Assembly: GCF_014697545.1 (NCBI RefSeq)
Contig: NZ_JACJSA010000009.1
Span: forward strand, 186,001 to 250,000
From: Oscillatoria sp. FACHB-1407
Lineage (GTDB): Bacteria; Cyanobacteriota; Cyanobacteriia; Elainellales; Elainellaceae
DNA: 64,000 nt
Direction: 5' to 3'
The notes below the pieces were generated by a model. The model ran no database searches, was not told where the DNA came from, and saw only the letters and a list, made by a program, of their open reading frames with translations. The position numbers were made by a program, and so were the translations under genes. Positions 1-59,466 of the stretch are shown here, piece after piece. Numbering within the stretch: the stretch's first letter is position 1; the number at the start of each line of letters is the position of its first letter.

Positions 1-2167
1 TGCCTCGTTCCAACACAATGATTTCATCGCAATCGCGAATTGTACTGAGACGGTGCGCCACGATCAGACAGGTGCAGCCCCGTTGCCGCAATTTCAAGTC
101 GATCGCCCTTTCTGCTTCGGTATCCAGGGCACTGGTGGCTTCGTCCATGATGACGATCGAGGGGTGATTAACTAAAGCTCTGGCAAGTTCAAGTCGCTGT
201 CGCTGACCTCCGCTCAGGTTAGTTGCACCTTCCAACAGAGCCGCATCGTAGCCACCCATCATCGCCAAAATCACATCTTCGATCGCCGCATCCTGGCAGG
301 CTCGTCGCAACGCCGCATCCGGCACCGTGGTATCCCATAGCGTCAAGTTATCGCGCACACTTCCAGCAAACAGCAAAATATCCTGCTCCACCACGGCGAT
401 CGAGTTTGTGAGCACCGATCGCGGAATTTGTCGTCTGGGAATGCCATCAAAGTAAATCTCGCCAGACCACGGTTCAAACAGCCCTGCAATTACCTTGGCG
501 AGCGTTGATTTACCGGAGCCGCTACCTCCCACCAGAGCTATCCGCTGTCCCGGTTTGATAGAGAGGTTAAAATTTTCAATCAGCGGGGGTTCCAGTGGAT
601 TGTAGCCGTAGGTAACATCCTTGATCTCAATGTATCCCTTGAGTCGATGGGTAGGGGATGCTGCGTAGAACATCGAGGAAGGCGGCATAACCTCTCCCAC
701 CGTTACATGAGAGATTAGCTGTGAATCAACCTCATTGCTCAACACATCGTCTAACCGTTGCAGATTGCCCTGCAAATCTTGAATGGTGCTACCAAAGCGC
801 ACGAGCCGATTCACGGGCAACAAAAAGCTTTGCGTCAGCATTTGAAATGCTACTAACATTCCAATGCTGAGATTGCCATGAATCACACGCCAACCGCCGA
901 TCGCCAGCAAGGATAGAGCCGTCAGAGCAGACAATAATGCAGGCATGACTCCGAGCACTTTGCTGATCATGCCCAGGTCTTGTTGAGCGTTGATCGCTTT
1001 GGTGTAATATCCTGCCCAGCGCGCAAAGAAATCAGATTCTAATCCAGAGGCTTTTAGCGTTTCCATGCTCTGAAGTCCGGCGATCGCCACCCCCGATACT
1101 TTGCCGTATTCCTGTGCCAGTCTGAGGTTTGCGTCAATGCGCTGGCGCGATACCCACTGGAGAATTAACACATTTAACGCGGCAAAAAACACGACAATCA
1201 GGGTTAATGGAGTGTCGTATTGCAACATGGCGATTGCATAAAAGACCACTAGCACAACACTAATAACAGTTGTCGTTAAGCGACCGGATAACACATCAGC
1301 GATATCGTCGTTGAGGCGTACACGACTGCTAATTTCGCCAGCAAAGCGTTGGGCATAGAAATGCATCGGTAACCGCAAAACATGCCACAGAAAACGACTG
1401 GAGAGGCTGACTGCTAATTTGATTTTGAGACTTCGTAGATAGCGCAGTTGCAGCAGGGTTAACAGTCCTTGTAGGGCGATCGCCAGCAACACACCGACAA
1501 GAATATAGGGCAGCCAATCGAGGCGATCGGCAATTAACACCTGATCGACAAACATTTGCGTAAAAATCGGCAACGCCAGTGTCGGAATGACCAGCAAAAA
1601 TCCGGCAAGGACGCAATAGAGGAGTGCCCCTGTAGACCCTTTCAAACGGCTACTCAAGGCGTTAACGACACTGGGTTTGCTCCCTCCAGGTTGGAAGTCT
1701 GTCCCTGGTTCCATGACCAGCACAACGCCCGTGTAGCCCTCATCAAAGTCCTGATAGGAAACGGTCATAGGACCCGCAGCTGGATTGTTGAGATAGACGC
1801 GATCGCGCCCAAAGCCATCCACCACTAAAAAATGGTTGAAATGCCAGAAGACAACAAAGGGTGGACGAAGCTGTTGTAAGCTGTCCAGGCTTTTCTTAAA
1901 GCCTTTGGCAACCAATCCGTAATTGCGGGCAGCTTTGAGAATATTAGCGGCAGTCACCCCATCACGCGACACGCCACAGGCTTGTCGAAGCTCCGCCAGA
2001 GGGACATATCGACCGTAATAACCCAACATCATGCCCAAACAGGCTGCCCCACACTCCACTGCCTCCATCTGAAGCACGGTTGGAGTCTTGACCCGAACCG
2101 GTTTATGCTCCAGCGATCGCACTTTGGGTTTGCGTTGTCGTGGTTTAAAAGAATTGATCCACATCAT
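1..2167 (-). CDS. NHLM-type C39 peptidase/ABC exporter (3' end beyond window)
   Basis: Bifunctional inner-membrane exporter that removes double-glycine leaders and pumps the mature peptide out. The N-terminal C39 peptidase spans about residues 28-150, with the catalytic Cys39 in MEAVECGAACLGM and His112 in FNHF. The third triad position, normally Asp in a DPA motif, is Asn128 (LNNPAAG). A hydrophobic transmembrane domain follows at about 170-430. The ATPase has Walker A GGSGSGKST, signature LSGGQRQR, Walker B IVIMDEATSALD and switch His IVAHRLST, so only the extreme C-terminus is missing. The start at 2167 overlaps the stop of the HlyD-like gene (ATGA), implying translational coupling. The peptidase resembles exporters of NHLM-type RiPP clusters. 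No RiPP modification enzyme is visible in the window. The likely substrate is the peptide encoded at 4181-4354 (inference). Confidence 0.93.
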   Translation of the reverse strand, partial: MMWINSFKPRQRKPKVRSLEHKPVRVKTPTVLQMEAVECGAACLGMMLGYYGRYVPLAELRQACGVSRDGVTAANILKAARNYGLVAKGFKKSLDSLQQLRPPFVVFWHFNHFLVVDGFGRDRVYLNNPAAGPMTVSYQDFDEGYTGVVLVMEPGTDFQPGGSKPSVVNALSSRLKGSTGALLYCVLAGFLLVIPTLALPIFTQMFVDQVLIADRLDWLPYILVGVLLAIALQGLLTLLQLRYLRSLKIKLAVSLSSRFLWHVLRLPMHFYAQRFAGEISSRVRLNDDIADVLSGRLTTTVISVVLVVFYAIAMLQYDTPLTLIVVFFAALNVLILQWVSRQRIDANLRLAQEYGKVSGVAIAGLQSMETLKASGLESDFFARWAGYYTKAINAQQDLGMISKVLGVMPALLSALTALSLLAIGGWRVIHGNLSIGMLVAFQMLTQSFLLPVNRLVRFGSTIQDLQGNLQRLDDVLSNEVDSQLISHVTVGEVMPPSSMFYAASPTHRLKGYIEIKDVTYGYNPLEPPLIENFNLSIKPGQRIALVGGSGSGKSTLAKVIAGLFEPWSGEIYFDGIPRRQIPRSVLTNSIAVVEQDILLFAGSVRDNLTLWDTTVPDAALRRACQDAAIEDVILAMMGGYDAALLEGATNLSGGQRQRLELARALVNHPSIVIMDEATSALDTEAERAIDLKLRQRGCTCLIVAHRLSTIRDCDEIIVLERG

Positions 2168-2739
2168 CGAGTTGTCTCAAGGAAAGGAAAGGCTAACGTG
2201 ATTGGAGCTTTTCTTGCCAGGGTGATGCGAGCGGTTGCAGTCATGCCGGGAGTCAAATTGAGGGATTGTTGTGTTGCAGAGTCGGAGTCTAACTCCACTA
2301 ACACCTCAATGGCTTCGGGTTGTAAAGCAGTCGGATCAGCACGACGGGCTTCATCAAGCGTCGTCAGCGGAGAGGCAGCAACCATTTTGACGCGACCTGT
2401 TACGCCCTCAGTTTGCTCCACCATTGCATCAGGAATCAGTGTCACTTCCATGCCCGGTTGAATGCGATCGCCCTCGCCTGGTTCAAAGTAGGTCAACCCA
2501 ACCAACTTGTCTGATGTGCTGGTCGGATGCACTAAAATCGCTCGACCCGTCGCCATGATGGAAAGGCGTCCCCACACGCTCCATCCGACGGCTAAACCCA
2601 CCAGCGATGCTAATGCGACTAGCGAAAGCCAACTTCGCGCATTGACCACTTGCATCAACTGGTCTAGCTGTTCTGGTGACGATAACCGTTCGAGCGATTC
2701 TCGTCGAAAAATGCTGGTTTGCGAATCAGAATTCATCAT
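2164..2739 (-). CDS. Minimal HlyD-like membrane-fusion protein of the peptide exporter
   Basis: About 191 residues. One transmembrane helix near the N-terminus (SWLSLVALASLVGLAVGW) is followed directly by the C-terminal beta-barrel part of NHLM-type secretion proteins (VGLTYFEPGEGDRIQPGMEV, then GVTGRVKMV and PGMTATARITL). The lipoyl domain and the long coiled-coil hairpin normally found between these parts are absent, so the protein is about half the usual family length. No frameshift or stop is visible, so it looks like a genuine short form or an old in-frame deletion. ATG at 2739 is chosen over an upstream GTG at 2748. It lies 13 bases after the cyclic-nucleotide-binding gene and overlaps the ABC gene by four bases, so it belongs to the same operon. 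Confidence 0.8.
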   Translation of the reverse strand: MMNSDSQTSIFRRESLERLSSPEQLDQLMQVVNARSWLSLVALASLVGLAVGWSVWGRLSIMATGRAILVHPTSTSDKLVGLTYFEPGEGDRIQPGMEVTLIPDAMVEQTEGVTGRVKMVAASPLTTLDEARRADPTALQPEAIEVLVELDSDSATQQSLNLTPGMTATARITLARKAPITLAFPFLETTR

Positions 2740-2752
2740 GGTTCCCACTCAT

Positions 2753-3835
2753 TCAAGTGATTCCTAGCCGTTTCAACATCCAACTAAATCGAGCGGCTCC
2801 CTGTGAGACGTGGTGCAGCGATTCTAAATTGAGTTCATCGTCATACTCCATGTCCTGATCCATCTGGTCGGGCTTTGGATCAGGCTGTTGCGGACATCCC
2901 AGTAGCTCAATTGCTGTTTGCACCGCCTCTAAAAGCTGAAGTGCGAGAATGCGGTAAAACCGGGACGCAAACCCCATATCCTGTTGTAGTTTCATTATTA
3001 GTTGCGATCGCGGAATCGCCAGCACCAATGACTCTTCAATGGCTCTCACCGAAACGGGTGATGGACTCATCGTCAGAAACGAACTGGTGCCGCTCATCTC
3101 CCCTCTTGAGAGGCGATCAATTACTTTCTGGGAACTCGCAATTTTGTTGACACACTCAAAACACAGGGTCAGCGGATTCACATCCCCTTCGTAAACCGAT
3201 ACGGATAGCAACCCATCCAGAATGATGTACAGCGCATCAAGCGGTCTACCTGCTTGGATCAGCGACGTATTGGGAGCCAGCTTTTGTAACTGACCTGCTG
3301 CGACCAACCAATCCACATCGCTGTCACGCAGTTCGCCAAATACAAACAACGCTTCTTTAACGGGCTGATCCGTCGCGGCTCGCAATTGTGTGGGCATCGT
3401 CAACATTTGTTGCAGTCGTTCTGTCAAAATCAGCGCGATCGCCCGATAAAAGTGAGTGCTGAAGTGACTATCTTGTTGCAACTTTGAGGTCAATCGCTGA
3501 TGTGGAATTGAGAGCACGATCGAATCTTTCACTGCCCTGACAAAAACCCCTGTTGATTGCACATTAAACAGGGATGTCACTCCCACCACTTCCCCTTCCG
3601 AGAAGCGGGTAATCTCTTTTTCGATAGGATGGTCAGACATCGCTGCACCAGCGCAACCTGCGCCCTGTTGCGGTACGCTGACTGTCAATATGCCATCGAG
3701 CAGAAGATGAATGGTGTCTGACTCCGTTTGAGGTTGGAGCAACACAGTTCCGGCGAGAATCTGTTGCTGTTGACCTGCGGTAATGAGCCAATCGATATCT
3801 GTATTACTGAGTTCTTGCAGCAGAATTCCTGCCAT
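2753..3835 (-). CDS. Protein with two cyclic-nucleotide-binding domains, exporter operon
   Basis: About 360 residues with two Crp/cNMP-type beta-roll domains in tandem. Repeat one contains DIDWLITAGQQQQILAGTVL and FSEGEVVGVTSLF. Repeat two contains DVDWLVAAGQLQKLAPNTSL and LSRGEMSGTSSFL. Each domain ends with a matching helix (LVLAIPRSQLIMKLQQD-like). No helix-turn-helix or enzymatic domain is visible, so it is more likely a sensor or regulatory partner of the exporter than a transcription factor. Such proteins are known beside NHLM-type peptide exporters. The reading frame extends upstream to a TTG at 3916. The ATG at 3835, preceded by a GCGGGA stretch, is preferred because it begins the conserved domain directly. 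Whether it binds a nucleotide cannot be told from sequence. Confidence 0.82.
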   Translation of the reverse strand: MAGILLQELSNTDIDWLITAGQQQQILAGTVLLQPQTESDTIHLLLDGILTVSVPQQGAGCAGAAMSDHPIEKEITRFSEGEVVGVTSLFNVQSTGVFVRAVKDSIVLSIPHQRLTSKLQQDSHFSTHFYRAIALILTERLQQMLTMPTQLRAATDQPVKEALFVFGELRDSDVDWLVAAGQLQKLAPNTSLIQAGRPLDALYIILDGLLSVSVYEGDVNPLTLCFECVNKIASSQKVIDRLSRGEMSGTSSFLTMSPSPVSVRAIEESLVLAIPRSQLIMKLQQDMGFASRFYRILALQLLEAVQTAIELLGCPQQPDPKPDQMDQDMEYDDELNLESLHHVSQGAARFSWMLKRLGIT

Positions 3836-4180: not shown

Positions 4181-4354
4181 CTATTTAGCGTGTGGGTTGA
4201 TGATGTCACTGGTGTCAACTGTAGGGTTATTGAGGTCACTGGGATTAGAATCTCCAGAAGGAGGACGAACCCCACCAGCGACTGCTTTCAGTTGATCTTC
4301 CGAAAGCTCTTCTTGCTTGACCGAATCCTGTTGGGTTTTATTTTGCTCAGCCAT
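4181..4354 (-). CDS. Double-glycine leader precursor peptide (57 aa)
   Basis: A small gene, 57 codons, ending in TAG. The N-terminal 28 residues are a typical C39-processed leader: acidic, ending in ELSEDQLKAVAGG. Cleavage after GG would release a 29-residue core beginning VRPPSGDSNPSDL and continuing NNPTVDTSDIIN to the C-terminus PHAK. The core has no cysteine and is rich in Ser, Thr, Asp, Asn and Pro. A GAGGA ribosome site lies about 9 bases before the ATG. It is the first gene of the minus-strand run leading into the cyclic-nucleotide-binding protein, HlyD-like adaptor and C39 exporter. The core motif recurs five times in the secreted protein at 13323-13781. It may be a signalling, biofilm or bacteriocin-like peptide. 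No modification enzyme is adjacent, so it is probably unmodified (inference). Confidence 0.85.
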   Translation of the reverse strand: MAEQNKTQQDSVKQEELSEDQLKAVAGGVRPPSGDSNPSDLNNPTVDTSDIINPHAK

Positions 4355-4390
4355 GAGATGTTATCCTCGTGTTACACATTGGGAGATAGG

Positions 4391-4438
4391 ACACTAGTCA
4401 GATCTCAAGCAGATTTGCGCTGATGAATCTACACTAGT
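4391..4438 (-). promoter_or_regulatory. Paired ACACTAGT repeats upstream of precursor peptide
   Basis: ACACTAGT occurs at 4391-4398 and again at 4431-4438, exactly 40 bases apart (about four helical turns), 37-84 bases upstream of the precursor start. The core ACTAGT is self-complementary. The placement suits an operator or activator site for the peptide-export operon. This is inference from position and repetition only. Confidence 0.3.
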
Positions 4439-4832
4439 GAGTTGATACAAGAGCTTTCAAACCGATTTGGTTGTGAACGAATTTCTTGTATATGTTGCAG
4501 TGTAGGAATGTTGTCTTGCTAAAGCCTTAATAGAACATGAGTTTTGACTGAGAAAAAGATGAGTGTTCCCTGAGAAAGAATCCAACAGATGGTGTGATGT
4601 AGATATAGCCGTAAAATTGTTTTGGGAGTGACCAATACAAGAACTGATTATAGCAAAAAATCTTCAGATTTTCTTAATATTTGTTTGGCGAAATTAGAGT
4701 TACGAAGCTAATAAAATACGCCTTTGATAGAGCATTCAGAATGGGTGAAATCAGTTGGCTGGAGTAGCACCATCACTGATAAGAGTCAATTTATAAAGTA
4801 AATCTTAAGGTCTAAAACATTTGATATTGCTT

Positions 4833-4915
4833 GATCCCCCCTTACCCCCCTTTTCAAGGGGGGAACCCAGGCAAGAGACTGAAGTCCCCCTTTTTAAGGG
4901 GGATTTAGGGGGATC
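4833..4915. repeat. C-rich/G-rich inverted repeat element
   Basis: An 83-base element framed by GATCCCCCC at the left and GGGGGATC at the right, with internal complementary blocks TTACCCCCCTTTTCAAGGGG and CCCCCTTTTTAAGGGGG. It can fold as one long hairpin or two local ones. It is the type of GATCCCCC-bounded repeat common in cyanobacterial intergenic DNA. The rest of 4439-5177 holds no convincing gene. Confidence 0.7.
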
Positions 4916-4968
4916 GAGAACTTTGTTTATGAATCAGCTCTAAGAGGTTGAACTTTTGTAGATGAATG

Positions 4969-5041
4969 TATAGCTTTGATTAGAAAGCTTAAGACAAAGG
5001 CAATGGCTCAAACCCTGACGTCTGTCGCTTGAAATGTAGCC
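4969..5041 (-). repeat. Dispersed repeat family B, truncated copy
   Basis: Reverse-strand, partly deleted copy of the approximately 100-base repeat also found at 28379-28474, 31862-31958 and 57544-57639. Shared blocks include TATAGCTTTG, AGAAAGCTTAAG, AAGGCAATGGCTCAAACCCTG and AAATGTAGC. The central GCGAGTCAGGAAGC block is eroded. Confidence 0.6.
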
Positions 5042-5177
5042 TTTACATCAAATTGGCTCAGCTTAACCTGAAGTTTGAGAAAACTGTATTACTTATCAGT
5101 TGATTCTTAGACAGTTCTCATTTACCTCGATAAAAATCACGCCACGATCGCAGTGTTCAATATTTGCACTTGTGGTT

Positions 5178-6608
5178 ATGAATTCATCCTCTCAACCAAC
5201 AGTCATTGTGGGAGGTGGTTTTGTTGGATTATTCACTGCTTTACATCTAGAGCAGCAAAACTATCCCCATCCGATTATTTTGATTGAACCGCGCGATCGC
5301 TTTGTGTTCAAGCCCCTGTTATATGAATTGCTGACAGGCGAAATGCACACAGACCAAATTTGCCCACTGTATACTGAGTTACTTGCAGATCGGTCAATAT
5401 TGTTCGTTCAAGATACGGTTCAGACGATTGATCTACATCACAGCTATGTGCAGTTGTCATCGGGGCAATCCTACCCCTACAGCAAGCTGGTGTTGGCATT
5501 GGGGAGCCGAGCCACCTATTTTAATACGCCTGGAGCATCCGACTATGCTTTCCCACTGACGTCAGATCAGGAAGCGATCGCCCTACGAGATCACTTGAAG
5601 ACTTGCTTGAGACAGGCGAGGCAGACGCCCGATCCTGAGGAACGCCTGCGTCTATTGACCGTCGCGATCGCAGGAGCCGGACCTGCTGGAGTAGAACTTG
5701 CCTGCGCGTTGGCTGACATCTTGCCTGTTTGGTATGACGACATGGGTGGCAATTATGAGGAGTTGCGGATTGTGCTGGTCAATCGCAGTGGTGAGATTCT
5801 CAAAGGCGACATCAACAGCCAGTTGCGGACGACGGCTCAACGTGCTCTCAACCAACGCACGATTCCGGTTGAACTGTTGCTGGATACAGCCGTGACAGAG
5901 ATTCATCCGAATGGGATGAATTATCAACAACATGGAAAGCTTAATTTTCTGCCTGCGGCAACGATCGCCTGGACTGCCGGAACCGAACCGCATCCCCTGC
6001 TCAAAGAATTGCCCGTTGCGCCTGAGCACCGCAATCGTCGGGGGCAACTTCAGGTATCGCCGACGCTGCAATTACCAGGATTCCCAGAGGTATTTGTAGG
6101 AGGTGACAATGCCTATGTGAAGGATGCACCACAACCCGCTACGGCTCAGGTGGCGTATCAGCAAGGCAAGGCGATCGCCCACAATTTACAGGCTCTGGTG
6201 CAGGGACGAATGCTCCATCCGGCTCATGTCACCTTACGGGGCACGTTGATGAAATTGGGCATTGGGGAAGGTGTTGCGAATGTGTTCGATCGCTTTGAAG
6301 TCAAAGGAGAATTGGGTCACTTAATCCGCCAGGGAACGTATCTGGAATTGTTGCCGACCCCTGCCCACAACGCTAAAGCCACAGCTGAATGGTTTGCCGA
6401 TCATCTCCTTCAGCGTCATCAACCCCGCTCTCTCAACCCCAACCATCAACATCACACTCCTTTGATTGCAGGGATCAGTGCGATCGCTGCCAGTATGCTC
6501 TTGACCTTGCCGTTTGCGTGGCGTGCTGCCCAACCCCAACAGTTTCAAACAACGCTGTCGTGGACAGGGCTACCAACGTTGCTCGACAACTTAACCCCAT
6601 CTGATTAG
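5178..6608 (+). CDS. Type II NADH dehydrogenase (NDH-2)
   Basis: About 476 residues. A monotopic flavoprotein that oxidises NAD(P)H and reduces quinone without proton pumping. The N-terminal FAD Rossmann motif is VIVGGGFVGLFTALHL. A second dinucleotide motif, VAIAGAGPAGVELACALADI, binds NAD(P)H. A third conserved region has VFVGGDNAYVKDAPQPATAQ and AYQQGKAIAHNL. A hydrophobic helix near the C-terminus (PLIAGISAIAASMLLTLPFA) probably anchors it. The upstream in-frame TTG at 5100 is rejected in favour of ATG 5178, which directly precedes the FAD fold. It stands alone, followed by repeats. Confidence 0.9.
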   Translation: MNSSSQPTVIVGGGFVGLFTALHLEQQNYPHPIILIEPRDRFVFKPLLYELLTGEMHTDQICPLYTELLADRSILFVQDTVQTIDLHHSYVQLSSGQSYPYSKLVLALGSRATYFNTPGASDYAFPLTSDQEAIALRDHLKTCLRQARQTPDPEERLRLLTVAIAGAGPAGVELACALADILPVWYDDMGGNYEELRIVLVNRSGEILKGDINSQLRTTAQRALNQRTIPVELLLDTAVTEIHPNGMNYQQHGKLNFLPAATIAWTAGTEPHPLLKELPVAPEHRNRRGQLQVSPTLQLPGFPEVFVGGDNAYVKDAPQPATAQVAYQQGKAIAHNLQALVQGRMLHPAHVTLRGTLMKLGIGEGVANVFDRFEVKGELGHLIRQGTYLELLPTPAHNAKATAEWFADHLLQRHQPRSLNPNHQHHTPLIAGISAIAASMLLTLPFAWRAAQPQQFQTTLSWTGLPTLLDNLTPSD

Positions 6609-6609
6609 T

Positions 6610-6709
6610 CAATGGTCAATGGTCAATGGTCAATGGTCAATGGTCAATGGTCAATGGTCAGTGGTCAGTGGTCAATGGTCGATGGTCAATGGTCAATGGT
6701 CGTTAGTTA
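6610..6709. repeat. Heptanucleotide tandem repeat (TCAATGG)n
   Basis: About fourteen units of a 7-base repeat, TCAATGG with variants TCAGTGG and TCGATGG, immediately after the NDH-2 stop. It is a short tandemly repeated repetitive (STRR) tract of the kind known from filamentous cyanobacteria. Confidence 0.9.
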
Positions 6710-6711
6710 AG

Positions 6712-6877
6712 TAACGTGAATTCGGGATAAGGATTTCGGCTGTTAAAACCGCCGCTAGCGGAGCAAAACCGACCGGCGTCGGTTCGTCAAATCCGGCCTT
6801 TTCCAGAGTCCGCGTCGGTGGACTTCGTTTAATAGCCGCGAATTCATTCGCCGGGTTCTTAAACCGAACTGACGTTA
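6712..6877 (+). repeat. MITE-like dispersed repeat family A, copy 1
   Basis: A 166-base element with imperfect terminal inverted repeats: TAACGTGAATTCGGGATAAG at the left, and a right end whose complement begins TAACGTCAGTTCGGTTTAAG. The interior contains GCAAAACCGAC, GTCGGTTCGTCAAATCC and GCGAATTCATTCGCCGGG. Related copies lie at 10685-10838, 43457-43623 and, interrupted, at 57295-57772. It carries no coding capacity, so it would depend on a transposase supplied in trans, if mobile at all. From 6878 to 7026 I see only the DoxX upstream region. Confidence 0.8.
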
Positions 6878-7026
6878 AGTAGGAAAACCTAATTAAACTC
6901 AATCCAGAATTCGGGTTTCGGCTCCGCTCAACCTGCTAGCAGAGAGATTTAGAGCATTGAGCGCAGTCGAAACGCATCTCTCAAATCCCAGATTTCCAGC
7001 TATTTCAGTTTTAGGAGAACATCACC

Positions 7027-7563
7027 ATGAACGCTTTGAACAATCTACTCAACTTCAGAATCTCCCTTAAAAAAGCGATGTTGATTAATCGTATGACAAT
7101 GGGGATCTTCTTCCTGGTGTCGGGCATTGCCAACTATCTCAACTTCAATGTCGAGAATGGGTTTTATCAAACCGTTCTGACTCTCAAACTCCAACTTTGG
7201 GGACCGTTTCCTGCCGGGTGGGAAGGCATTGGACCCTTACCCGCGTTGATTGCCATTCCCTATGCCTGGTTGCTACCGCTCGCAGAAATTGTGTTAGGCA
7301 CCTTATTTGCCCTCGGCTTATGGATTCGCTGGACAGGCTTACTCCTGATCCTGATGACATTTAGTATCATTCTCGCCTTTGGCATCATTCCTGCCGGAAG
7401 TTTATTTCCCAATGCAGCGGAAAGCTTCAACAAAAACATCATGTTTATGACGCTGATTTGGATGTGTATTGCCTACGAAGTCGATACAAAACGAGCACGT
7501 ATGCGCCGCACTGAAGAACGGCTTTATCTCAGTTCGATTGGTGATTCTGGTAATGCCCAATAG
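7027..7563 (+). CDS. DoxX-like membrane protein
   Basis: 178 residues with four hydrophobic segments (starting MTMGIFFLVSGIANYLNF, then PLAEIVLGTLFALGLWI, GLLLILMTFSIILAFGIIPAG and NIMFMTLIWMCIAYE). The pattern matches the DoxX/SURF4-like family, membrane proteins linked to quinone or thiosulfate redox chemistry, though most members have no defined role. The start has a good ribosome site, TTAGGAGAACATCACC before the ATG. It precedes a GMC oxidoreductase and may share a redox context with it, but a 367-base repeat tract separates them. Confidence 0.75.
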   Translation: MNALNNLLNFRISLKKAMLINRMTMGIFFLVSGIANYLNFNVENGFYQTVLTLKLQLWGPFPAGWEGIGPLPALIAIPYAWLLPLAEIVLGTLFALGLWIRWTGLLLILMTFSIILAFGIIPAGSLFPNAAESFNKNIMFMTLIWMCIAYEVDTKRARMRRTEERLYLSSIGDSGNAQ

Positions 7564-7629
7564 CAAAGGGGCTTAGGGAGTGGGGAGTGAGGGAGTAGAG
7601 GGGTGAGGGAGTGAGGTAGTAGATAATGC

Positions 7630-7925
7630 CTCCTTCTTATCCTTCATCCTTTATCTTTCATCTTTCATCTTTCATCTTTCATCCCTCTTCCCTCTTCTCT
7701 CTTCTCTCTTCCCTCTTCTCTCTTCTCTCTTCTCTCTTCTCTCTTCTCTCATCCTTTATCCTTTATCCTTTATCCTTTATCCTTTATCCTTCTCTCTTCT
7801 CTCTTCTCTCATCCTTTATCCTTTATCCTTTATCCTTTATCCTTTATCCTTTCCTCTTCCCTCTTCTCTCATCCTTTATCCTTTATCCTTTATCCTTTCC
7901 TCTTCTCTCTTCTCTCTTCTTTTTT
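7630..7925. repeat. Long simple-repeat tract of TCCTTTA and CTCTTCT heptamers
   Basis: Nearly 300 bases of pyrimidine-only-like DNA alternating blocks of TCCTTTA and TCTCTCT/CTCTTCC units. A long reading frame crosses it but translates to low-complexity SFIL/SLLSS repeats and is not a gene. It ends six bases before the GMC oxidoreductase start, so the 5' leader of that mRNA is a pyrimidine tract. Confidence 0.9.
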
Positions 7926-7930
7926 CCCTT

Positions 7931-9475
7931 ATGTCTACACCACACTACGACGTCATCATCATTGGAACTGGGGCAGGTGGCGGCACCCTGGCTCATCGTC
8001 TCGCACCCAGTGGCAAAAAAATCCTGGTTCTGGAACGGGGAACGTTTCTCCCCCGTGAAAAGGAGAACTGGGACACGGTGCAAGTATTTCAAAAAGACCG
8101 CTATCACACTTCGGATGTCTGGTATGACCGGGATGGTGAACCCATTCATCCGGGGACAGGATATTGGGTGGGCGGCAATACCAAAGTTTATGGGGGTGCT
8201 TTATTTCGTTGGCGCGAGAGGGACTTTGAACAGGTCATTCACACAGGCGGAATTTCACCAGAGTGGCCTCTCAAATACCGCGATTTTGAACCTTATTACA
8301 CTGAAGCCGAAAAGCTATACGACGTGCATGGCAAATCTGGACAAGACCCAACAGAACCCTATCGTAGTGAAGAATATCCCCATCCAGCGATCGCCCATGA
8401 GCCTCGTATTGCTGAGATTCATGATGCACTGCAAGCGAAAGGCTATCATCCCTTTCATCTGCCATTGGCGATTAAATTGAATGAGGCGAATCGCCGCTTA
8501 GGAGCCTGTATTCGCTGCAATACCTGTGATGGGTTTCCCTGTCTGGTTAACGGCAAGGCGGACTCCGACATTAACTGCATTCGTCCCACGGTAGATACCT
8601 CGACCAACGTCACTTTGTTTACAGAGGCAGAAGTGTTGCGCCTGCACACCAGTGTCTCTGGGCGAGAAGTGACCCATGTAGAGGCACGGGTTGCCGGACA
8701 TCGCACGCTCTTCTCGGCAGATATTGTGGTGGTGTCGTGTGGTGCAATTAATTCTGCGGTGTTGCTGTTAAAGTCAGCAAATGATCAGCATCCCTATGGG
8801 CTGGCAAACAGTTCTGATCAGGTGGGACGCAACTTCATGAAACACCAAAATGGGGCGATCGTGGGTGTTGCTCGTAAACTGAATCCTACGTTGTTTCAGA
8901 AGACGATGGGCTTCAATGATTTCTATTGGGGTGAACCTGGATTTGACTATCCGATGGGGCATGTCCAACTCCTCGGCAAGGTTAATAAAGATCTGGTTGC
9001 TCTGGATGCGCCTAAATTTGCTCCGGGAATGGCGTTGGACGAAGTGGCAAAACGTTCCGTGGATTGGTGGCTCACGGCTGAAGATCTACCCGATCCCAAG
9101 AACCGCGTCACGGTGCAAAACAGCACCATTACTCTCGACTACACCGATAACAACATCGCTGCCTTCGATCGCCTCTTATACCGATGGACAGAGGTGTTGC
9201 AATCCATCGACTGCGGCGACCATATCCTGCCCTGTTCCCTCTACTTCCGCAAACGAGTGCCGTTGCAGGGTGTGGCGCACCAGTGTGGCACCTGTCGGTT
9301 TGGTGAAGACCCAACAACCTCGGTGTTGGATCTCAACTGTCGTACCCATGACGTTGATAACTTGTACGTTGTGGATGGTAGTTTCTTCCGCTCTAGCGCA
9401 GCGGTGAACCCAACGTTGACGATTATTGCCAATGCTCTGCGGGTGGGAGATCACCTGCTCGATCGCCTGAAGTAG
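7931..9475 (+). CDS. GMC-family FAD oxidoreductase
   Basis: 514 residues. The N-terminal FAD motif is DVIIIGTGAGGGTLAHRLAP followed by LVLERG. The C-terminal GMC signature region contains HQCGTCRFG, NLYVVDGSFFRSSAAVNPTL and TIIANALRVGDHL. A cysteine-rich stretch, ACIRCNTCDGFPC, lies mid-protein. The family oxidises alcohols or sugars using FAD, and the substrate cannot be assigned. The ATG follows directly after the pyrimidine repeat tract with no recognisable Shine-Dalgarno sequence. The downstream transporter starts four bases after the stop, so the two probably form an operon. Confidence 0.9.
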   Translation: MSTPHYDVIIIGTGAGGGTLAHRLAPSGKKILVLERGTFLPREKENWDTVQVFQKDRYHTSDVWYDRDGEPIHPGTGYWVGGNTKVYGGALFRWRERDFEQVIHTGGISPEWPLKYRDFEPYYTEAEKLYDVHGKSGQDPTEPYRSEEYPHPAIAHEPRIAEIHDALQAKGYHPFHLPLAIKLNEANRRLGACIRCNTCDGFPCLVNGKADSDINCIRPTVDTSTNVTLFTEAEVLRLHTSVSGREVTHVEARVAGHRTLFSADIVVVSCGAINSAVLLLKSANDQHPYGLANSSDQVGRNFMKHQNGAIVGVARKLNPTLFQKTMGFNDFYWGEPGFDYPMGHVQLLGKVNKDLVALDAPKFAPGMALDEVAKRSVDWWLTAEDLPDPKNRVTVQNSTITLDYTDNNIAAFDRLLYRWTEVLQSIDCGDHILPCSLYFRKRVPLQGVAHQCGTCRFGEDPTTSVLDLNCRTHDVDNLYVVDGSFFRSSAAVNPTLTIIANALRVGDHLLDRLK

Positions 9476-9479
9476 CCCT

Positions 9480-10535
9480 ATGAGCGTCATGACGAAACAT
9501 TCTGTGATCTTCGATCGCATTCCCAGTGTTGTTTATCTCTGGACAGCCATTCTGATTTTTGCGGCATCTAACGCAGTAACCCGCAAAGTGACCGAGATTG
9601 GAGCACAGCATTTGATTGATGGGCGTAATCCCATTTCACTATGTAATGTTCTTTTTGTGGGCAATCTTTGTGCATTAGTTGTAATGATTAGTGTGTTTGG
9701 TAGGCAGTGGAATAAACGCACACTGCGGCAATTGTCATACCAGGATTGGCTCAGTTTAGTTGCGATCGCCATGCTTTCTGGGGCACTGGCTCCAGCTTTG
9801 ATTTTCGCGGCACTCGACACAACAAATGTTACGAATGTAGTGCTGATCGGTCGCCTGGAACCTCCCCTCACGCTGATTTTTAGCGTTCTTCTGCTAAAGG
9901 CACGGGTGAATGTCTGGACTGCGTTAGGGTCGCTCGTGTCGCTGGTCGGGGTCACTGTGACTGCTGTAATTGCCAGTAGCGAACACGTCATGATGCCTCT
10001 GATGGGAGGGCTATTTCACGTTGGTCGAGGAGAGTTGATGACCGCGATCGCCGCCTGTGTGTTAGCGATCGCTACGGTGATTAGCAAATCTCGCCTGAAG
10101 CACATTCCTCTGGGCATTTTCAACATCGTGCGGGTGGGTTTGGGAACAGTGGTTTTTTTCGTGTTGGCGAATGTGTTGTACGGGGCACAGCATTTTGTCG
10201 ATGTATTCTCGCCTTTTCTTTGGAAGTGGATGCTGTTGTATGGGTCGGTGATTGTTGTCGCAGGACAGCTTTGCTGGTTTGCCGGATTGCGTCACTCTAC
10301 ACCTGCCATGACGACGTTAGCGAGTTCGTTTAACCCAATAGCGGCGATCGCAATGGCGTATCTGATTTTGGGAGAAATCCCCACAGCAGCCCAATACACG
10401 GGAGCCACGATTATCCTGGCAGGAGTTGTGTTGAGCTTGATTGGCAGCTTACAGGAGATAAAATCCAGGAAGCACGCCGATCCTACGCCCTATGGTCAAC
10501 AAATGGGAATGATTACGGGGTTTAGAGGAGTGTGA
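9480..10535 (+). CDS. EamA/DMT-family transporter
   Basis: 351 residues with about ten hydrophobic helices arranged as two EamA repeats (first around WLSLVAIAMLSGALAPALIFAAL, second ending PIAAIAMAYLILGEIPTAAQ and GATIILAGVVLSLIG). Drug/metabolite transporters of this type export amino acids, metabolites or related small molecules. It is four bases downstream of the GMC oxidoreductase gene, suggesting co-transcription and perhaps handling of its substrate or product. The specificity is unknown. Confidence 0.88.
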   Translation: MSVMTKHSVIFDRIPSVVYLWTAILIFAASNAVTRKVTEIGAQHLIDGRNPISLCNVLFVGNLCALVVMISVFGRQWNKRTLRQLSYQDWLSLVAIAMLSGALAPALIFAALDTTNVTNVVLIGRLEPPLTLIFSVLLLKARVNVWTALGSLVSLVGVTVTAVIASSEHVMMPLMGGLFHVGRGELMTAIAACVLAIATVISKSRLKHIPLGIFNIVRVGLGTVVFFVLANVLYGAQHFVDVFSPFLWKWMLLYGSVIVVAGQLCWFAGLRHSTPAMTTLASSFNPIAAIAMAYLILGEIPTAAQYTGATIILAGVVLSLIGSLQEIKSRKHADPTPYGQQMGMITGFRGV

Positions 10536-10544
10536 GAGAAGAGA

Positions 10545-10622
10545 GAAGAGGGAAAATAAGGATAAAGGATGAAGGATAAAGGATGAAGGATAAAGGATGA
10601 AGGATAAAGGATGAAGGATAGG
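10545..10622. repeat. AT/G-rich tandem repeat (GGATAAAGGATGAA)n
   Basis: Five or more copies of a 14-base unit, GGATAAAGGATGAA, made of related heptamers. It begins ten bases after the EamA stop and is the reverse complement style of the tract at 7630-7925. No coding potential. Confidence 0.85.
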
Positions 10623-10684
10623 AAGGCGCATTGAGGGTATGTTCAGAATTTTGTGTAAAATCCTATCCCGCCTTCGCTCTAACC

Positions 10685-10838
10685 TAACGTGAATTCGGGA
10701 TAAGGATTTCGGCGGTTTTAACCACCGCTATGGGAGCAAAACCGACCTGCGTCGGTTCGTCAAATCCTGCCTTTTCCGGAGTTCGCGTTGGCGGACTTCG
10801 CTCTAATAGCCGCGAATTCATTCGCCGGGCTCCTAAAC
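10685..10838 (+). repeat. MITE-like dispersed repeat family A, copy 2
   Basis: Starts TAACGTGAATTCGGGATAAG and shares with copy 1 the blocks GCAAAACCGAC, GTCGGTTCGTCAAATCC and GCGAATTCATTCGCCGGG. The right terminal repeat is lost at about 10838, only four bases before the 3' end of the histidine-kinase gene, so insertion or decay reaches its stop codon. Confidence 0.78.
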
Positions 10839-10841
10839 TTT

Positions 10842-12971
10842 CTACCTCCGACCTGGCAACCTTACCGTCACGGTTGTACCCACCTCGGCTGATGACTCAA
10901 TGCACAACTCTCCATGATGTGCCTCAACAATACGCTTGACGATCGCCAGTCCTAATCCGTTACCGTTGGTCTTGGTGGTAAAAAAGGGTTTGGTCAGTTT
11001 TACCAGAATATCGGGCGGAATGGGATCACCAGTGTTATGAACTTGAACGACGATTTGGTTCGATTGATCCCTCTGCAAGGACACCGTAATAACGGCTCCG
11101 TCGTCTACAGCCTCGCAAGCGTTGGTCACCAGGTTAATCAACACCTGTTTGAGTTTGTCGCGATCGCCCAAAACAGGGGCAGCAGTAGCGGCAGAGTTAA
11201 ACCGCAGGGGTTTAGTTGAGGCAACAGGCAAATCGCGCAAGGTGTGCAGAGTTTCTGTAATCAAACTGGTTAAGTCTAGTTCGATTTGATTCAGCGTTTG
11301 CGGTTTGGCGTATAGCAAAATCTGATTGAGTAATCGTTGGAGGCGATCGCCCTCATCCAGTGCAAGTGCCAGGTATTCCTGAAAGCGTCCTGACAGTTCC
11401 AATCGTTTGAAGGCCCCAAGCCCCATGACCATTGTCGTCAGGGGATTGCGGACTTCGTGGACGATCATCGAGGCGAGTTCCCCAATTTCTGCGAGACGTT
11501 CCAAGGCTTTGGCGGCTTGCTTGAGAACAGTGATATCTGTAGTTACGCCCAGTAAGCAGGGTTCTCCGTCTAAGTCGATAATGTCAGCAGAAACCAGGGC
11601 TAAAAAGGTGTCCCCGGATTTACGTCGCAGTTCTACTTCAACGTTGGAGACAGTCCCCTGTTCCTGGAGTAACCGAGTAATGGTTGCGCGATCGTCTGTT
11701 TTAACCCAGATGTTGAGATCGAATGCACTCTGACCAATCACTTCCTCGTGCTCGTAGCCTAACATCCGCAGGAAGCTGTCATTTACCTCTAGAAATCGTC
11801 CTTCCTTAATTGTGGTAATCGTGATGCCGCTGGGAGACGACCGAAACGCTTTAGAAAACTTTTCTTGAGATGCTCGAATCACAGCTTCGGCTTGTTGACG
11901 CTCCATCTCAGCCGCTGCCCGTGCCGCAAAAATTTCCAGGATGGCGGTACTGCGAGGAATGTCTGCAAGGGGTTGATCGTCCAAGACGGCTAAGTGTCCC
12001 AACAGTTTACCGGAAGAGTCCCGCAGTGCAACGCCTGCATAACTCTGAGCTTTCATCTCAGGTAGCGAGTCATCTTCAGGAAACAGAAGTTGCAGTTGAT
12101 CCGGATAACATTGACAGGTTTGGCTGTTAATTACCTGTTCGCAGGCAGTACCGTAGACATCGTATTCAAAGTTCTCGATGAACTCGTTTTGATACCAACA
12201 GGCGATCGTGCGGAGACGAGTGGGTGCATTGCTGTCACATTCAGTAATGAAAGCATAATAGACATCGAGAGCTTGCGCGAGAGAACGCACGAGAGAATGA
12301 AAAAAGTCTTTGCGAGTAACGCCTGCCGTTGCTTCAACGATTAACCGGAGTGTTTGTTCTGAACGTTGTCGTTCTAAAACTTCGCGTTCCAGTATTTGAT
12401 TGGTTCGTACCAGGTCAGCCGTTCGTTGTTGGACTCGCGCCTCTAATTCGTTGTACAACCGGGCATTGTCGATGGCGATCGCCGCTTGAGCAGAGAGGAG
12501 TTGAACAATTTCCAAATGGCTATCTGTAAAAGCGTCGGTGACAAATGTATTTTCGAGATAAATAATTCCAGTAAGTTTGTTTTGATTGATTAAAGGAACA
12601 CACAACACTGACCTGGGTCTTACAACAATTGGCTGACGAAACAATCGTTGAGCTTTCGATATATCTCCGAGAATGATATTCTCGTGGGTTTGAGCAACGA
12701 AGTGGATGATATCTACAGAAGCGTGATCAATCGTATCTTTGGGTGTTAGTGGAATCGAATGCAAGACTTCAATGTGGGGAGAATTTGCAGTTCCCTCGGC
12801 TTCAATAAAGAACTGTTCGTCTTTCTCTAAAATTAAATAGCCACGTTCTGCACCTGTATTTTCAATCAGGATATTCATCAACGTAACCAATAGTTGATCC
12901 AGCACAATTTCACGGGACAATGCCTGTGCCGCTTTCATGGCGGTTGTCAGGTTGAGCGCACTGGATGTCAT
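10842..12971 (-). CDS. Hybrid sensor histidine kinase (GAF-GAF-PAS-HisKA-HATPase)
   Basis: 709 residues, cytosolic: no transmembrane segment is seen. Order: a GAF domain at about 20-165 (TGAERGYLILEKD, QAAIAIDNARLY), a coiled coil, a second GAF-like domain at about 210-355, PAS with PAC at about 370-490 (FRSSPSGITITTIKEGRFLEVNDSFL is split here as RSSPSGITI and FLEVNDSFLRMLGY), HisKA with the phosphate-accepting His in SMIVHEVRNPLTTM, and HATPase with NLVTNACEAV and NGLGLAIVKRIVEAHHG. There is no receiver domain, and no response regulator gene is adjacent, so it is an orphan kinase. The ligand is unknown. The last codon abuts a family A repeat. Confidence 0.92.
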   Translation of the reverse strand: MTSSALNLTTAMKAAQALSREIVLDQLLVTLMNILIENTGAERGYLILEKDEQFFIEAEGTANSPHIEVLHSIPLTPKDTIDHASVDIIHFVAQTHENIILGDISKAQRLFRQPIVVRPRSVLCVPLINQNKLTGIIYLENTFVTDAFTDSHLEIVQLLSAQAAIAIDNARLYNELEARVQQRTADLVRTNQILEREVLERQRSEQTLRLIVEATAGVTRKDFFHSLVRSLAQALDVYYAFITECDSNAPTRLRTIACWYQNEFIENFEYDVYGTACEQVINSQTCQCYPDQLQLLFPEDDSLPEMKAQSYAGVALRDSSGKLLGHLAVLDDQPLADIPRSTAILEIFAARAAAEMERQQAEAVIRASQEKFSKAFRSSPSGITITTIKEGRFLEVNDSFLRMLGYEHEEVIGQSAFDLNIWVKTDDRATITRLLQEQGTVSNVEVELRRKSGDTFLALVSADIIDLDGEPCLLGVTTDITVLKQAAKALERLAEIGELASMIVHEVRNPLTTMVMGLGAFKRLELSGRFQEYLALALDEGDRLQRLLNQILLYAKPQTLNQIELDLTSLITETLHTLRDLPVASTKPLRFNSAATAAPVLGDRDKLKQVLINLVTNACEAVDDGAVITVSLQRDQSNQIVVQVHNTGDPIPPDILVKLTKPFFTTKTNGNGLGLAIVKRIVEAHHGELCIESSAEVGTTVTVRLPGRR

Positions 12972-13322
12972 GGGATGATTCTGCCCTTGGATCTAGGTTC
13001 ATCATCTCTGTTCAGCGATAGAGATTGAAGAGAATGTATTGTTTTTTATTATTTTTGCAGTGGTTTCACAGGATCTAATACCAATTCAGTTCAGAAAGGC
13101 TACACCTATAATCCCTTTTCCCTTGCCTACGGTGTATATACATCTCTGTTTTTTCAATGGTAGTGTCTTGCTCACGGCACGAGCAAGATGCTCGCACTAC
13201 CCTAACTTTTAACTGTGACGCAGCACTAGCCCTGGTCAGCTTCCTGACAAAAACTTAAAGTCCCCCAAGGATTGAGGGACAATGGCTGTATGAACTTGCC
13301 AGGAAGGAGTCCTGAAGCTTTA
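12972..13322. other. Intergenic region with repeat family C
   Basis: No gene is recognised. It contains a repeat-family C copy at 13166-13230, with the internal hairpin TCTTGCTCACGGCACGAGCA, shared with 26446-26507. Near 13259-13283 there is a C-rich/G-rich imperfect inverted repeat (TCCCCCAAGGATTGAGGGA) that could act as terminator for the secreted repeat gene reading leftwards into it. Confidence 0.5.
13166..13230 (+). repeat. Dispersed repeat family C, copy 1
   Basis: 65-base sequence shared with 26446-26507: a GCTCACGGC.CGAGCAAGATG hairpin block, CTCGCACTACCCTAA, then AACTGTGACG.AGCACTAGC. No coding capacity. Confidence 0.65.
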
Positions 13323-13781
13323 CTACCCGATGATTTGGGAGGTATCCACAGTGCGGTTGCCCAGGTCAGAAGGATTGGAGTCACCGGAGGGAGGCTTCGC
13401 TGCAATGATTTGGGAGGTATCCACAGTGCGGTTGCCCAGGTCAGAAGGATTGGAGTCACCGGAGGGAGGCTTTGCCGCAATGATTTGAGAGGTATCCACG
13501 GTGCGGTTGCCCAGGTCGGAAGGATTGGAGTCACCGGAGGGGGGCTTTGCCGCAATGATTTGAGAGGTATCCACGGTGCGGTTGCCCAGGTCGGAAGGAT
13601 TGGAATCACCGGAGGGGGGCTTTGCCGCAATGATTTGAGAGGTATCCACGGTGCGGTTGCCCGAATCAGAAGGATTGGAATCACCGGAGGGAGGCTTTGC
13701 TGCCACAGTAATTGAAGCGATGGGAGCCAGGGTAACTCCCAGTACTAAAGCAGTCAATCCAGCAAACATTAAGCGTTTCAT
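13323..13781 (-). CDS. Secreted tandem-repeat protein carrying five copies of the peptide motif
   Basis: 152 residues. The ATG at 13781 has a strong AAGGAG ribosome site seven bases upstream and is preferred over an upstream in-frame start. The first 26 residues form a Sec signal peptide: MKRL, a hydrophobic core (FAGLTALVLGVTLAP), then ASITVAA. After it come five contiguous 25-residue units, each reading AAKPPSGDSNPSDLGN followed by RTVDTSQII; the first unit has Ser for Leu. The unit matches the core of the double-glycine peptide at 4181-4354 at about 19 of 23 positions. Each unit boundary reads IIAAK, similar to the signal-peptide end TVAAK, so processing could release identical peptides (inference). 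No cysteine and no known domain. Function unknown; I suggest a multi-copy peptide precursor or matrix protein. Confidence 0.85.
   Translation of the reverse strand: MKRLMFAGLTALVLGVTLAPIASITVAAKPPSGDSNPSDSGNRTVDTSQIIAAKPPSGDSNPSDLGNRTVDTSQIIAAKPPSGDSNPSDLGNRTVDTSQIIAAKPPSGDSNPSDLGNRTVDTSQIIAAKPPSGDSNPSDLGNRTVDTSQIIG
13329..13703 (-). repeat. Five 75-bp direct repeats inside the secreted protein gene
   Basis: Five head-to-tail 75-base units (13329-13403, 13404-13478, 13479-13553, 13554-13628, 13629-13703) that differ at only a few, mostly synonymous, positions. Because 75 is a multiple of three, all reading frames stay open on both strands, producing spurious overlapping ORFs. The signal peptide, ribosome site and match to the 4181-4354 peptide identify the true frame. 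Confidence 0.95.
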
Positions 13782-57930: not shown

Positions 57931-58743
57931 TTACTCAACCGTCTCATTGGGAGATTTCTGAATCTCGCGTAAATCAGGCAATTCGATTAAGTCTGCCTTT
58001 TCGGCTTGTTTTGTTTCTTCGTGAGCAACCAACTCTTTCTGCGTTTCCTTGATGGTGAGTGGCAACTGCAATGGGGTGAGTTGTTCGATCCAGCAGCTAG
58101 CCAGCGGCAACGAGAGTTCCAGATCGTCCAGTGGTCGAGGGATCACGATAATGCCATGAAGTTCGCCAATGCGTTCTGCTTCGTGCATCCCAGCCTCGAT
58201 CGCCACGGCGACATCGGAGACACGACCCCGGATAATGGCAGTACACAGACCATCCCCAATCATTTCATAGGCAGCCAGGTTAACATCGGCTGCTTTGAGC
58301 ATGGCATCAGCCGCCCCAACCATTGCCGGAAAGCCGCGTGTTTCTAACAGCCCGATCGCCTGATTGCTGAGTTTACTAAATCCCTGTTGTTGAACGATCT
58401 CAGCCATGCGGCTACTGATCGGTAAGACAACCTCTAAGTTAGGCATGGGGCGCGGAATGATGGTGTGGGAAACCAACTGCCCAAACTGTTCAGCCGTTTC
58501 TGCGCCCACCTGAACAGCAATGCGGACATCTGCAATGTTGCCTCGTACAACCGCTGTACAATGTCCGCTTCCCGTTTTTTCAAACCCAATTAACGTCACC
58601 CCCGACGCTTTGAGCATGGTGTCCGCCGTACCGACGATCGCCGGAAAACTTTGTGTAGACACCATGCCAATCGCAGTACCACTGAGGCTATGCGATCGCC
58701 CTTCTCCTGAATTTTGCCGAGTTGTGGTCTGGTTAGGTTCCAT
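57931..58743 (-). CDS. ccmO: Carboxysome shell protein CcmO (tandem BMC domains)
   Basis: 270 residues. Two BMC (Pf00936-type) domains in tandem: about 22-115 (AIGMVSTQSFPAIVGTADTM and TAVVRGNIADVRIAVQVG) and about 128-215 (AIGLLETRGFPAMVGAADAM and TAIIRGRVSDVAVAIEAG). They form pseudohexameric trimers in the carboxysome facets or edges. A charged C-terminal tail (QKELVAHEETKQAEKADLIE) is extra. Here ccmO remains in the main ccm operon, the last of six co-directional genes, 18 bases after ccmN. Confidence 0.95.
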   Translation of the reverse strand: MEPNQTTTRQNSGEGRSHSLSGTAIGMVSTQSFPAIVGTADTMLKASGVTLIGFEKTGSGHCTAVVRGNIADVRIAVQVGAETAEQFGQLVSHTIIPRPMPNLEVVLPISSRMAEIVQQQGFSKLSNQAIGLLETRGFPAMVGAADAMLKAADVNLAAYEMIGDGLCTAIIRGRVSDVAVAIEAGMHEAERIGELHGIIVIPRPLDDLELSLPLASCWIEQLTPLQLPLTIKETQKELVAHEETKQAEKADLIELPDLREIQKSPNETVE

Positions 58744-58761
58744 GAGGCTCTCCGTTTCCCA

Positions 58762-59433
58762 TCACTCTGGTGCTTGATTCAATGCAGAAGTCGTCTGGTT
58801 CAACGGCTGATTCAGAGATTGCCGATGGGGAAAAAGAGATGCCATCAATGTGTTGAAAGCGTCTAATCCATAAACCGTAGGCTTGGCAGCTGTATCGGGC
58901 TGGGTTGGTTGCGACTGTGCCCCATTAGGCTCAGACGAGTCCACTGGTTCCCCTTCCGGTTCCACGAGGTCAGATGATGTTTCTTCCAAAGAGCTATGCT
59001 CATTCGAGTTACCTTCATCCAAGCTGGCTACTGCCAACTCAGATTCAGATTCACTCGACTCAGATTCACTCGACGGCAGCTGTCGGCTGCGATCGCCCAT
59101 GAGCGTCTCCGGAGGAATCACCTGTCCCGATTCGACACAACCATTCAAAATGGTGGTCATTGACCCAATACAGGCATTTGCTCCAATCTTACCACTGCCG
59201 ACTAGCAGCACACCACTGCCCAGACAGGCATTGACCTCGATCGTCAAATCCCCTTCGTAGGCATGCAAAATGGAACCCGCCCCAATGGAGACTCCCGCCG
59301 CAATCATCAGACGGGCGCCTGGATCAGCCTGAAGCAGCACACCAGGGGCGATCGCTGCGCTCGGATGAACGGTCACATCTCCCCGAATCGAGAAGTGTAG
59401 CTCGCTCATCAATTGCGGTTGCGGCAATAGCAT
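58762..59433 (-). CDS. ccmN: Carboxysome assembly protein CcmN
   Basis: 223 residues. An N-terminal left-handed beta-helix (hexapeptide repeats: GDVTVHPSAAIAPGVLLQAD, IEVNACLGSGVLLVGSGKIG), a Ser/Glu-rich linker (DNA tandem TCAGATTCACTCGA near 59040-59075) and a C-terminal amphipathic encapsulation peptide (VYGLDAFNTLMASLFPHRQ) that binds shell CcmK proteins. CcmN bridges CcmM to the shell during beta-carboxysome assembly. The start MLLPQPQL matches the family; an internal ATG at 59409 is possible. Confidence 0.95.
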   Translation of the reverse strand: MLLPQPQLMSELHFSIRGDVTVHPSAAIAPGVLLQADPGARLMIAAGVSIGAGSILHAYEGDLTIEVNACLGSGVLLVGSGKIGANACIGSMTTILNGCVESGQVIPPETLMGDRSRQLPSSESESSESESELAVASLDEGNSNEHSSLEETSSDLVEPEGEPVDSSEPNGAQSQPTQPDTAAKPTVYGLDAFNTLMASLFPHRQSLNQPLNQTTSALNQAPE

Positions 59434-59466
59434 TGCTCGGAGTTAGCGATGGGGGTACCCCAATAT

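Follow-up and report, generated by a model that had tools for sequence, protein, structure and literature searches.

A peptide core shared by two secretion formats in Oscillatoria sp. FACHB-1407 and its relatives: a candidate peptide system

We analyzed a stretch of 64,000 nucleotides from Oscillatoria sp. FACHB-1407 (positions 186,001 to 250,000 of contig NZ_JACJSA010000009.1, here contig 9; the whole stretch is called the window), in which one peptide core is encoded in two formats, once in a double-glycine (GG) precursor that heads an export cassette with a C39 ABC exporter and five times in tandem in a protein with a predicted Sec signal peptide. The same pattern recurs in sister genomes with a second, unrelated core. 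The architecture of these genes, the sharing of the motif, the selection acting on it and the matching of the motif between both formats are firm. Tentatively, we read them as a two-format system whose peptides would serve as a pheromone-like signal or self-recognition ligand. The precursor features in the window are as follows.

4181..4354, minus strand: GG precursor, 57 residues (leader, residues 1-28, at 4271-4354; core, residues 29-57, at 4184-4270)
13323..13781, minus strand: Sec-type tandem precursor by its open reading frame (ORF), 152 residues, five core units, no credible domain, predicted unfolded
13698..13781, minus strand: predicted Sec signal peptide, 28 residues, visible in the sequence, with probable cleavage between VAA and K
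13623..13697, minus strand: core unit 1 (PPSGDSNPSDSGNRTVDTSQII)
13548..13622, minus strand: core unit 2
13473..13547, minus strand: core unit 3
13398..13472, minus strand: core unit 4
13326..13397, minus strand: core unit 5

Both ORFs lie exactly where the original prediction had placed them. The GG precursor, as read from its ORF, consists of the 28-residue leader MAEQNKTQQDSVKQEELSEDQLKAVAGG, ending in LKAVAGG, and the 29-residue core VRPPSGDSNPSDLNNPTVDTSDIINPHAK. The Sec protein starts with MKRLMFAGLTALVLGVTLAPIASITVAA, followed by five units of the form KPPSGDSNPSD(S/L)GNRTVDTSQII(AA/G). The units had been described as 25 residues long, which applies to all except the last (24 residues), and the GG core had been said to share about 19 of 23 positions with each of them; from R/K to II, this is the case for units 2 to 5, while unit 1 shares only 18 (S for L). 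That the similarity exceeds chance was borne out by a genome search with two Sec units as the query, which returned the GG core with an E-value of 1.3e-6 and four further genes.

Family searches of both precursors showed that the core is covered by no Pfam, NCBIfam or PHROGs family. Against the NCBIfam leader models, the GG leader scored below all cut-offs (cyan_ocin_like, 19 bits; CCRG-2, 18; bacteriocin_sig, 13.6), and the precursor reached neither the NHLP and Nif11 leader families (12.3 and 13.1 bits versus 50.9 and 32.3) nor the CTB family bacteriocin model NF038167 (19 bits, mainly in the leader region, versus 32), which leaves it with a generic GG leader only. The structure prediction of the tandem protein, based on a shallow alignment of four sequences, had a predicted local distance difference test (pLDDT) value of 37, that is, predicted unfolded. 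Its Pfam matches (DUF6634, Molybdopterin_N and others) were rejected, as no stretch passes and they look like repeat artefacts; a calcium loop (dockerin or EF-hand) for GDSNPSDLGNRTVD was likewise rejected, the spacing being off by one and a Pfam match lacking. The GG leader, the C39 exporter and the signal peptide are consistent with a secreted, processed peptide.

With the consensus PPSGDxNPSDxxNxTVDTSxII, the host genome was found to carry six PPSGD genes (2 GG and 4 Sec, 17 core units in all), more than the original prediction had seen. The GG genes are located on contigs 9 and 11, each with its own cassette, and the Sec genes are tandem on contigs 9, 2 and 14 and single-copy on contig 27, the contig 2 and contig 14 copies being near identical, upstream region included. 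The prediction depended on the motif being conserved in other genomes, and five other members of the family indeed have intact PPSGD genes, in both GG and tandem Sec form in G028, as tandem Sec genes in G019 and G009 and as single Sec genes in G005 and G020, with E-values of 1e-6 to 1e-17 in the PPSGD searches. Several of the relatives are incomplete metagenome assemblies, and the phylum searches reported here are samples. A pattern scan of 84,980 species genomes (in which records of the host genome or near-identical ones may be left out) returned only these relatives, and within a sample of 386 phylum genomes, the core was found in the host genome only. Viral contigs, PDB sequences and PHROGs yielded no PPSGD relatives, and one weak plasmid match, from Cereibacter (28% identity), was rejected as a relative. 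Upstream of the GG and Sec genes, a search for a shared promoter motif gave none above shuffled sequences. Two minor observations belong here. An 18-base stretch (TTCTCAGTCAAAAC...) is shared by the upstream regions of the orthologous GG genes of two genera, at ca. −200 of 4354 and ca. −178 of the G028 gene (L030), and a decayed PPSGD unit (KSPACDLNPQDRSNPTVDSSQVIG) is present in G016 (L031:4419-4562, contig G016:C84), on the same contig as two Sec genes of the second motif (RFE, see below).

The PPSGD core is under purifying selection. Pooled over 11 PPSGD genes, synonymous differences (pS) amounted to 0.77 and nonsynonymous differences (pN) to 0.20, a ratio of 0.26, whereas a value near 1 would have spoken against the original prediction. 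Between the GG core and one Sec unit, the values were 0.85 and 0.18, and among units 2 to 5 of the contig 9 array, there were six synonymous codon differences and no nonsynonymous ones. The claim that identity is kept at the protein level thus holds, given saturated pS and low pN. In protein, the contig 9 GG core was nearest to the other GG gene (pN, 0.07), while its synonymous sites were closest to those of the Sec gene on contig 2 (pS, 0.44), which hints at possible movement of cores between the formats. Two positions before PP, nearly all units of both formats have A, G or S; this would fit trimming by a shared step, without proving it.

The GG gene heads five same-strand genes in the order GG precursor, two-CAP_ED protein, short HlyD, C39 ABC exporter and second ABC subunit, as listed below.

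2753..3835, minus strand: two-CAP_ED protein (cyc_nuc_ocin), first cassette gene after the precursor (TIGR03896, 264 bits; cut-off, 161)
2164..2748, minus strand: short HlyD of NHLM type, without the lipoyl and coiled-coil part (TIGR03794, 85.5 bits; cut-off, 156.2)
1..2167, minus strand: C39 peptidase ABC exporter (ABC1), running on left of the window (TIGR03796, 1084 bits; cut-off, 853; PF03412, 119.7 bits)
outside the window, next after ABC1: second ABC subunit (ABC2) (TIGR03797, 985 bits; cut-off, 709)

The C39 exporter invoked in the original prediction is therefore a gene of the cassette itself, as identified by TIGR03796 and PF03412. The contig 11 cassette gave similar scores for the two-CAP_ED protein (TIGR03896, 253.5 bits; cut-off, 161) and the C39 ABC exporter (TIGR03796, 1129 bits; cut-off, 853), and all three PPSGD GG genes (contigs 9 and 11 and G028) head the same cassette type. 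The HlyD proteins of both host cassettes fell below the TIGR03794 cut-off for a full-length NHLM HlyD (146.8 bits on contig 11), with model positions 1 to 56 covered in the contig 9 protein and 288 to 419 in its contig 11 homologue. Aligned with full-length relatives from other cassettes, the short HlyD (ca. 195 residues) has the N-terminus and the barrel, and the middle part is missing; this short form (about 200 versus about 420 residues) was found in every cassette of the clade that we looked at, whether PPSGD, RFE or some others (also at L024:6052-6663). The lipoyl and coiled-coil hairpin is the part of HlyD that normally meets the TolC channel. Since the short HlyD lacks it, the GG route may end in the periplasm, where the Sec form also arrives, so that both secretion routes may deliver to the same compartment.

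The second motif came from the neighborhood of the Sec genes. In G028, a small secreted protein, a membrane kinase and an OmpR-type regulator are encoded downstream of a tandem PPSGD gene, and at the orthologous kinase loci of G017, G023, G005 and G016, the same slot is taken by tandem Sec proteins with the repeat LNxRFxxxRxxxLNx. The RFE core, of 15 residues (LNxRFxxxRxxxLNK), is unrelated to PPSGD. Tandem Sec genes with it were found in 13 of 36 family genomes, and eight genomes (G001, G006, G007, G010, G016, G026, G032 and G033) have orthologous cassettes with an RFE GG precursor, made of two leader-core modules, each with its own GG site. Of the two or three core units in these precursors (L178-L184 and L186), the first and the second each follow a GG leader of their own, an arrangement in which the C39 peptidase would need to cut within the precursor. 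A hidden Markov model built from Sec RFE units alone recovered all eight GG precursors among 14,625 ORFs with E-values of 3.5e-16 to 4.3e-8, the next match being at 0.49; hence, the two-format pattern recurs with an unrelated peptide, which the original prediction had not included. In G263 (L206 and L225), from another cyanobacterial family, the same cassette is headed by a GG precursor, in divergent position, whose RRxNLDK core is related, and a Sec counterpart was not found in the 0.59 of 4.9 Mb covered. A phylum search with the Sec RFE profile came back empty, a weak result, as the set held no positive control genome.

Within genomes, the two formats agree in motif. Where the GG genes are of the PPSGD type (two genomes), so are the Sec genes, with no RFE gene found, while five of the eight genomes with RFE GG genes have RFE Sec genes, and none of the eight has an intact PPSGD gene. 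Thus, matching was complete among the seven genomes in which both formats occur (two PPSGD and five RFE), an outcome expected once in 21 under random dealing. RFE GG units were also most like the Sec units of their own genome (five genomes; p = 1/120). In the tree of the two-CAP_ED protein, rooted by midpoint, the three PPSGD cassettes constitute a single clade (99/95) nested in the RFE clade (97/98), for which reason the motif appears to have been swapped once, from RFE to PPSGD. Genomes G005 and G009 carry PPSGD as well as RFE Sec genes; their cassettes yielded neither a PPSGD nor an RFE GG gene.

In the reading that we tentatively favor, the GG precursor would be trimmed and exported by the neighboring C39 exporter, and the Sec-secreted polyprotein, with one to several tandem cores, would be cut into single peptides; judging from the short HlyD, both would reach the periplasm first. 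Lineages would differ in their core, PPSGD or RFE, and within a lineage, both formats would share it. One envelope partner, a presumed receptor, would read the core sequence, and hence the peptides would act as a signal or self-recognition ligand. Secretion, cleavage to single peptides, the receptor and signaling are all inferred from the genes. The PPSGD core is rich in Pro, Gly and Asp and the RFE core is charged and probably helical, with no residues or evident shape in common, and that two unrelated cores take the same positions speaks against a function determined by shape or metal ligands and favors sequence recognition. A more specific version, which we hold more loosely, is that these are interchangeable, pherotype-like peptide types present in two formats per cell and swapped together because one envelope receptor reads both.

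Several points weigh against this reading. No dedicated receptor gene consistently adjoins either format at the loci examined, and in most relatives, the Sec genes lie near metal or stress genes. Genomes G001, G026 and G032, which have RFE GG genes, gave no Sec RFE gene with the query used. Finally, gene conversion rather than a shared partner could explain the within-genome similarity, as illustrated by the contig 9 GG and contig 2 Sec pair. Kinase neighbors occur but are not specific, since the membrane kinase ortholog accompanies PPSGD, RFE or neither, and the kinase adjoining the Sec gene of the window has GAF and PAS domains, without a periplasmic sensor domain being found in the domain search.

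A different explanation for the matched motif is that the GG peptide is antagonistic and the Sec tandem protein a periplasmic multicopy mimic that occupies the target or uptake protein and so protects the producer. The cassette type is annotated as bacteriocin export, from which an antibacterial product is putative only; matched motifs within genomes are predicted here as well, and genomes with the Sec form only would carry orphan immunity. However, the PPSGD core is short, hydrophilic and acidic, without Cys or a membrane-active pattern, there are more Sec than GG copies, a classical immunity gene was not seen and some RFE GG genomes showed no Sec copy. We consider a bacteriocin with its decoy unlikely.

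We regard as improbable, too, that the Sec genes are accessories of envelope or metal stress, small periplasmic proteins like CopM or CusF induced by metal or redox two-component systems, with the GG form as their secreted version. The gene neighborhoods provide the case for it. In G005, G009 and G020, the Sec gene is located 180 to 240 bp upstream of a CusB-type adaptor on the same strand; in G019, its neighbors on either side are an RppB-type kinase and a CueO-like oxidase; and in G028, a kinase and an OmpR-type regulator follow it. Similarly, CopM of Synechocystis, a small secreted protein, is encoded beside a two-component system in copMRS, with a metal RND pump under the same control (PMC4335983). 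Yet 12 of 16 family CusB loci, the host genome's own included, had no such Sec gene within the flanks read, none of the four host Sec copies adjoins a metal efflux gene and the same slot is taken by two unrelated cores. Moreover, CopM is a Met- and His-rich DUF305 protein (23 Met and 8 His), without such repeats or a GG form (PMC4335983), while in G000, G005 and G020, the core contains neither Cys nor Met, and its conserved motif is free of His. Ligands of the CopM/CusF kind (Met, His or Cys) or a DUF305 domain were not found, and the mature Sec protein has no Pfam domain beyond repeat artefacts.

Given that the Sec form is repetitive and that Synechococcus elongatus biofilms need GG proteins (PMC4997328), the peptides might instead form or modulate extracellular matrix, like EbfG1-4. 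The tandem protein is predicted to be unfolded (from the shallow alignment), a common structural role for PPSGD and RFE cores is hard to envisage and the EbfG proteins are larger, with mature parts that have no reported homologues (PMC4997328). A matrix role is very unlikely. Chance or low-complexity similarity, which the short motif and the repetitive protein might have suggested, is refuted to a near certainty by the E-values, the saturated synonymous sites with few replacements and the recurrence with a second motif.

Parts of the system resemble known ones. In heterocyst-forming cyanobacteria, PatS, PatX and HetN carry one motif (RGSGR-like) on differently delivered precursors; the motif of the host system is unrelated to theirs, and they are single copy, without a C39 cassette. 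Several peptide copies in one precursor are found in yeast alpha-factor. Multicore microviridins have them as well (PMC5934393), but the host form differs from both: it is a bacterial Sec precursor, no modification enzymes are known for it, and a GG single-copy form is its counterpart. The closest cassettes are the group V clusters (Wang, Fewer and Sivonen 2011, PMC3140520), or NHLM cassette (TIGR03794, TIGR03796 and TIGR03797), with the same two-CAP_ED protein, HlyD, C39 ABC, peptidase-less second ABC and GG precursor. In contrast, the HlyD of the host cassette lacks the lipoyl and coiled-coil part, a modification enzyme was not seen, Sec tandem genes at other places in the genome encode the core as well and the RFE variant has two leader-core modules per precursor. 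The parallel that had been drawn with PteB and EbfG1-4 of S. elongatus is loose. It holds for the small GG proteins, the C39 ABC transporter and the cyanobacterial host, but the host cassette is of the two-CAP_ED, second-ABC type (group V, PMC3140520), and the EbfG proteins are larger (ca. 9 to 10 kDa), without reported homologues (PMC4997328), and no Sec tandem counterpart was found in the consulted sections of that paper. The original prediction knew of no described system with the PPSGD motif, and in two secretion formats, the motif was likewise absent from the families and literature that we searched; nor did we find a description of the same core in ABC-exported and Sec-exported precursors, here seen for two unrelated cores.

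Only a very small number of cyanobacterial GG peptides have a known role. From the gene pattern, the exact mature peptides and their matched partner genes can be predicted, as can the peptide to which each genome should respond, and with synthetic peptides of 25 to 30 and 15 residues, GG peptide function becomes directly testable.

An uncharacterized family of small secreted proteins (NLARNGYF..GIPS..TAEDLVQAAI..RLSP) was found in 16 of 36 family genomes, often in several copies, adjoining tandem peptide genes of both motif classes and kinase genes (L022:4099-4428, L025:2562-2858, L032:14174-14530 and loci L088-L117). For the small secreted protein neighboring the Sec gene, a single-sequence structure prediction gave a pLDDT of 52. 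A dispersed repeat coding MFDCGRSLGRGVSRNALTESCAAKPIQIG lies near several system genes of the host genome (L104, L114 and L024:4100-4315), and another (ACGTGAATTCGGGATAAGGATTTCGG...) has two intergenic copies in the window, at 6720-6880 and 10680-10840. Further along the window, ORFs at 57931-61152 resemble carboxysome genes (CcmM, CcmN and a two-domain shell protein).

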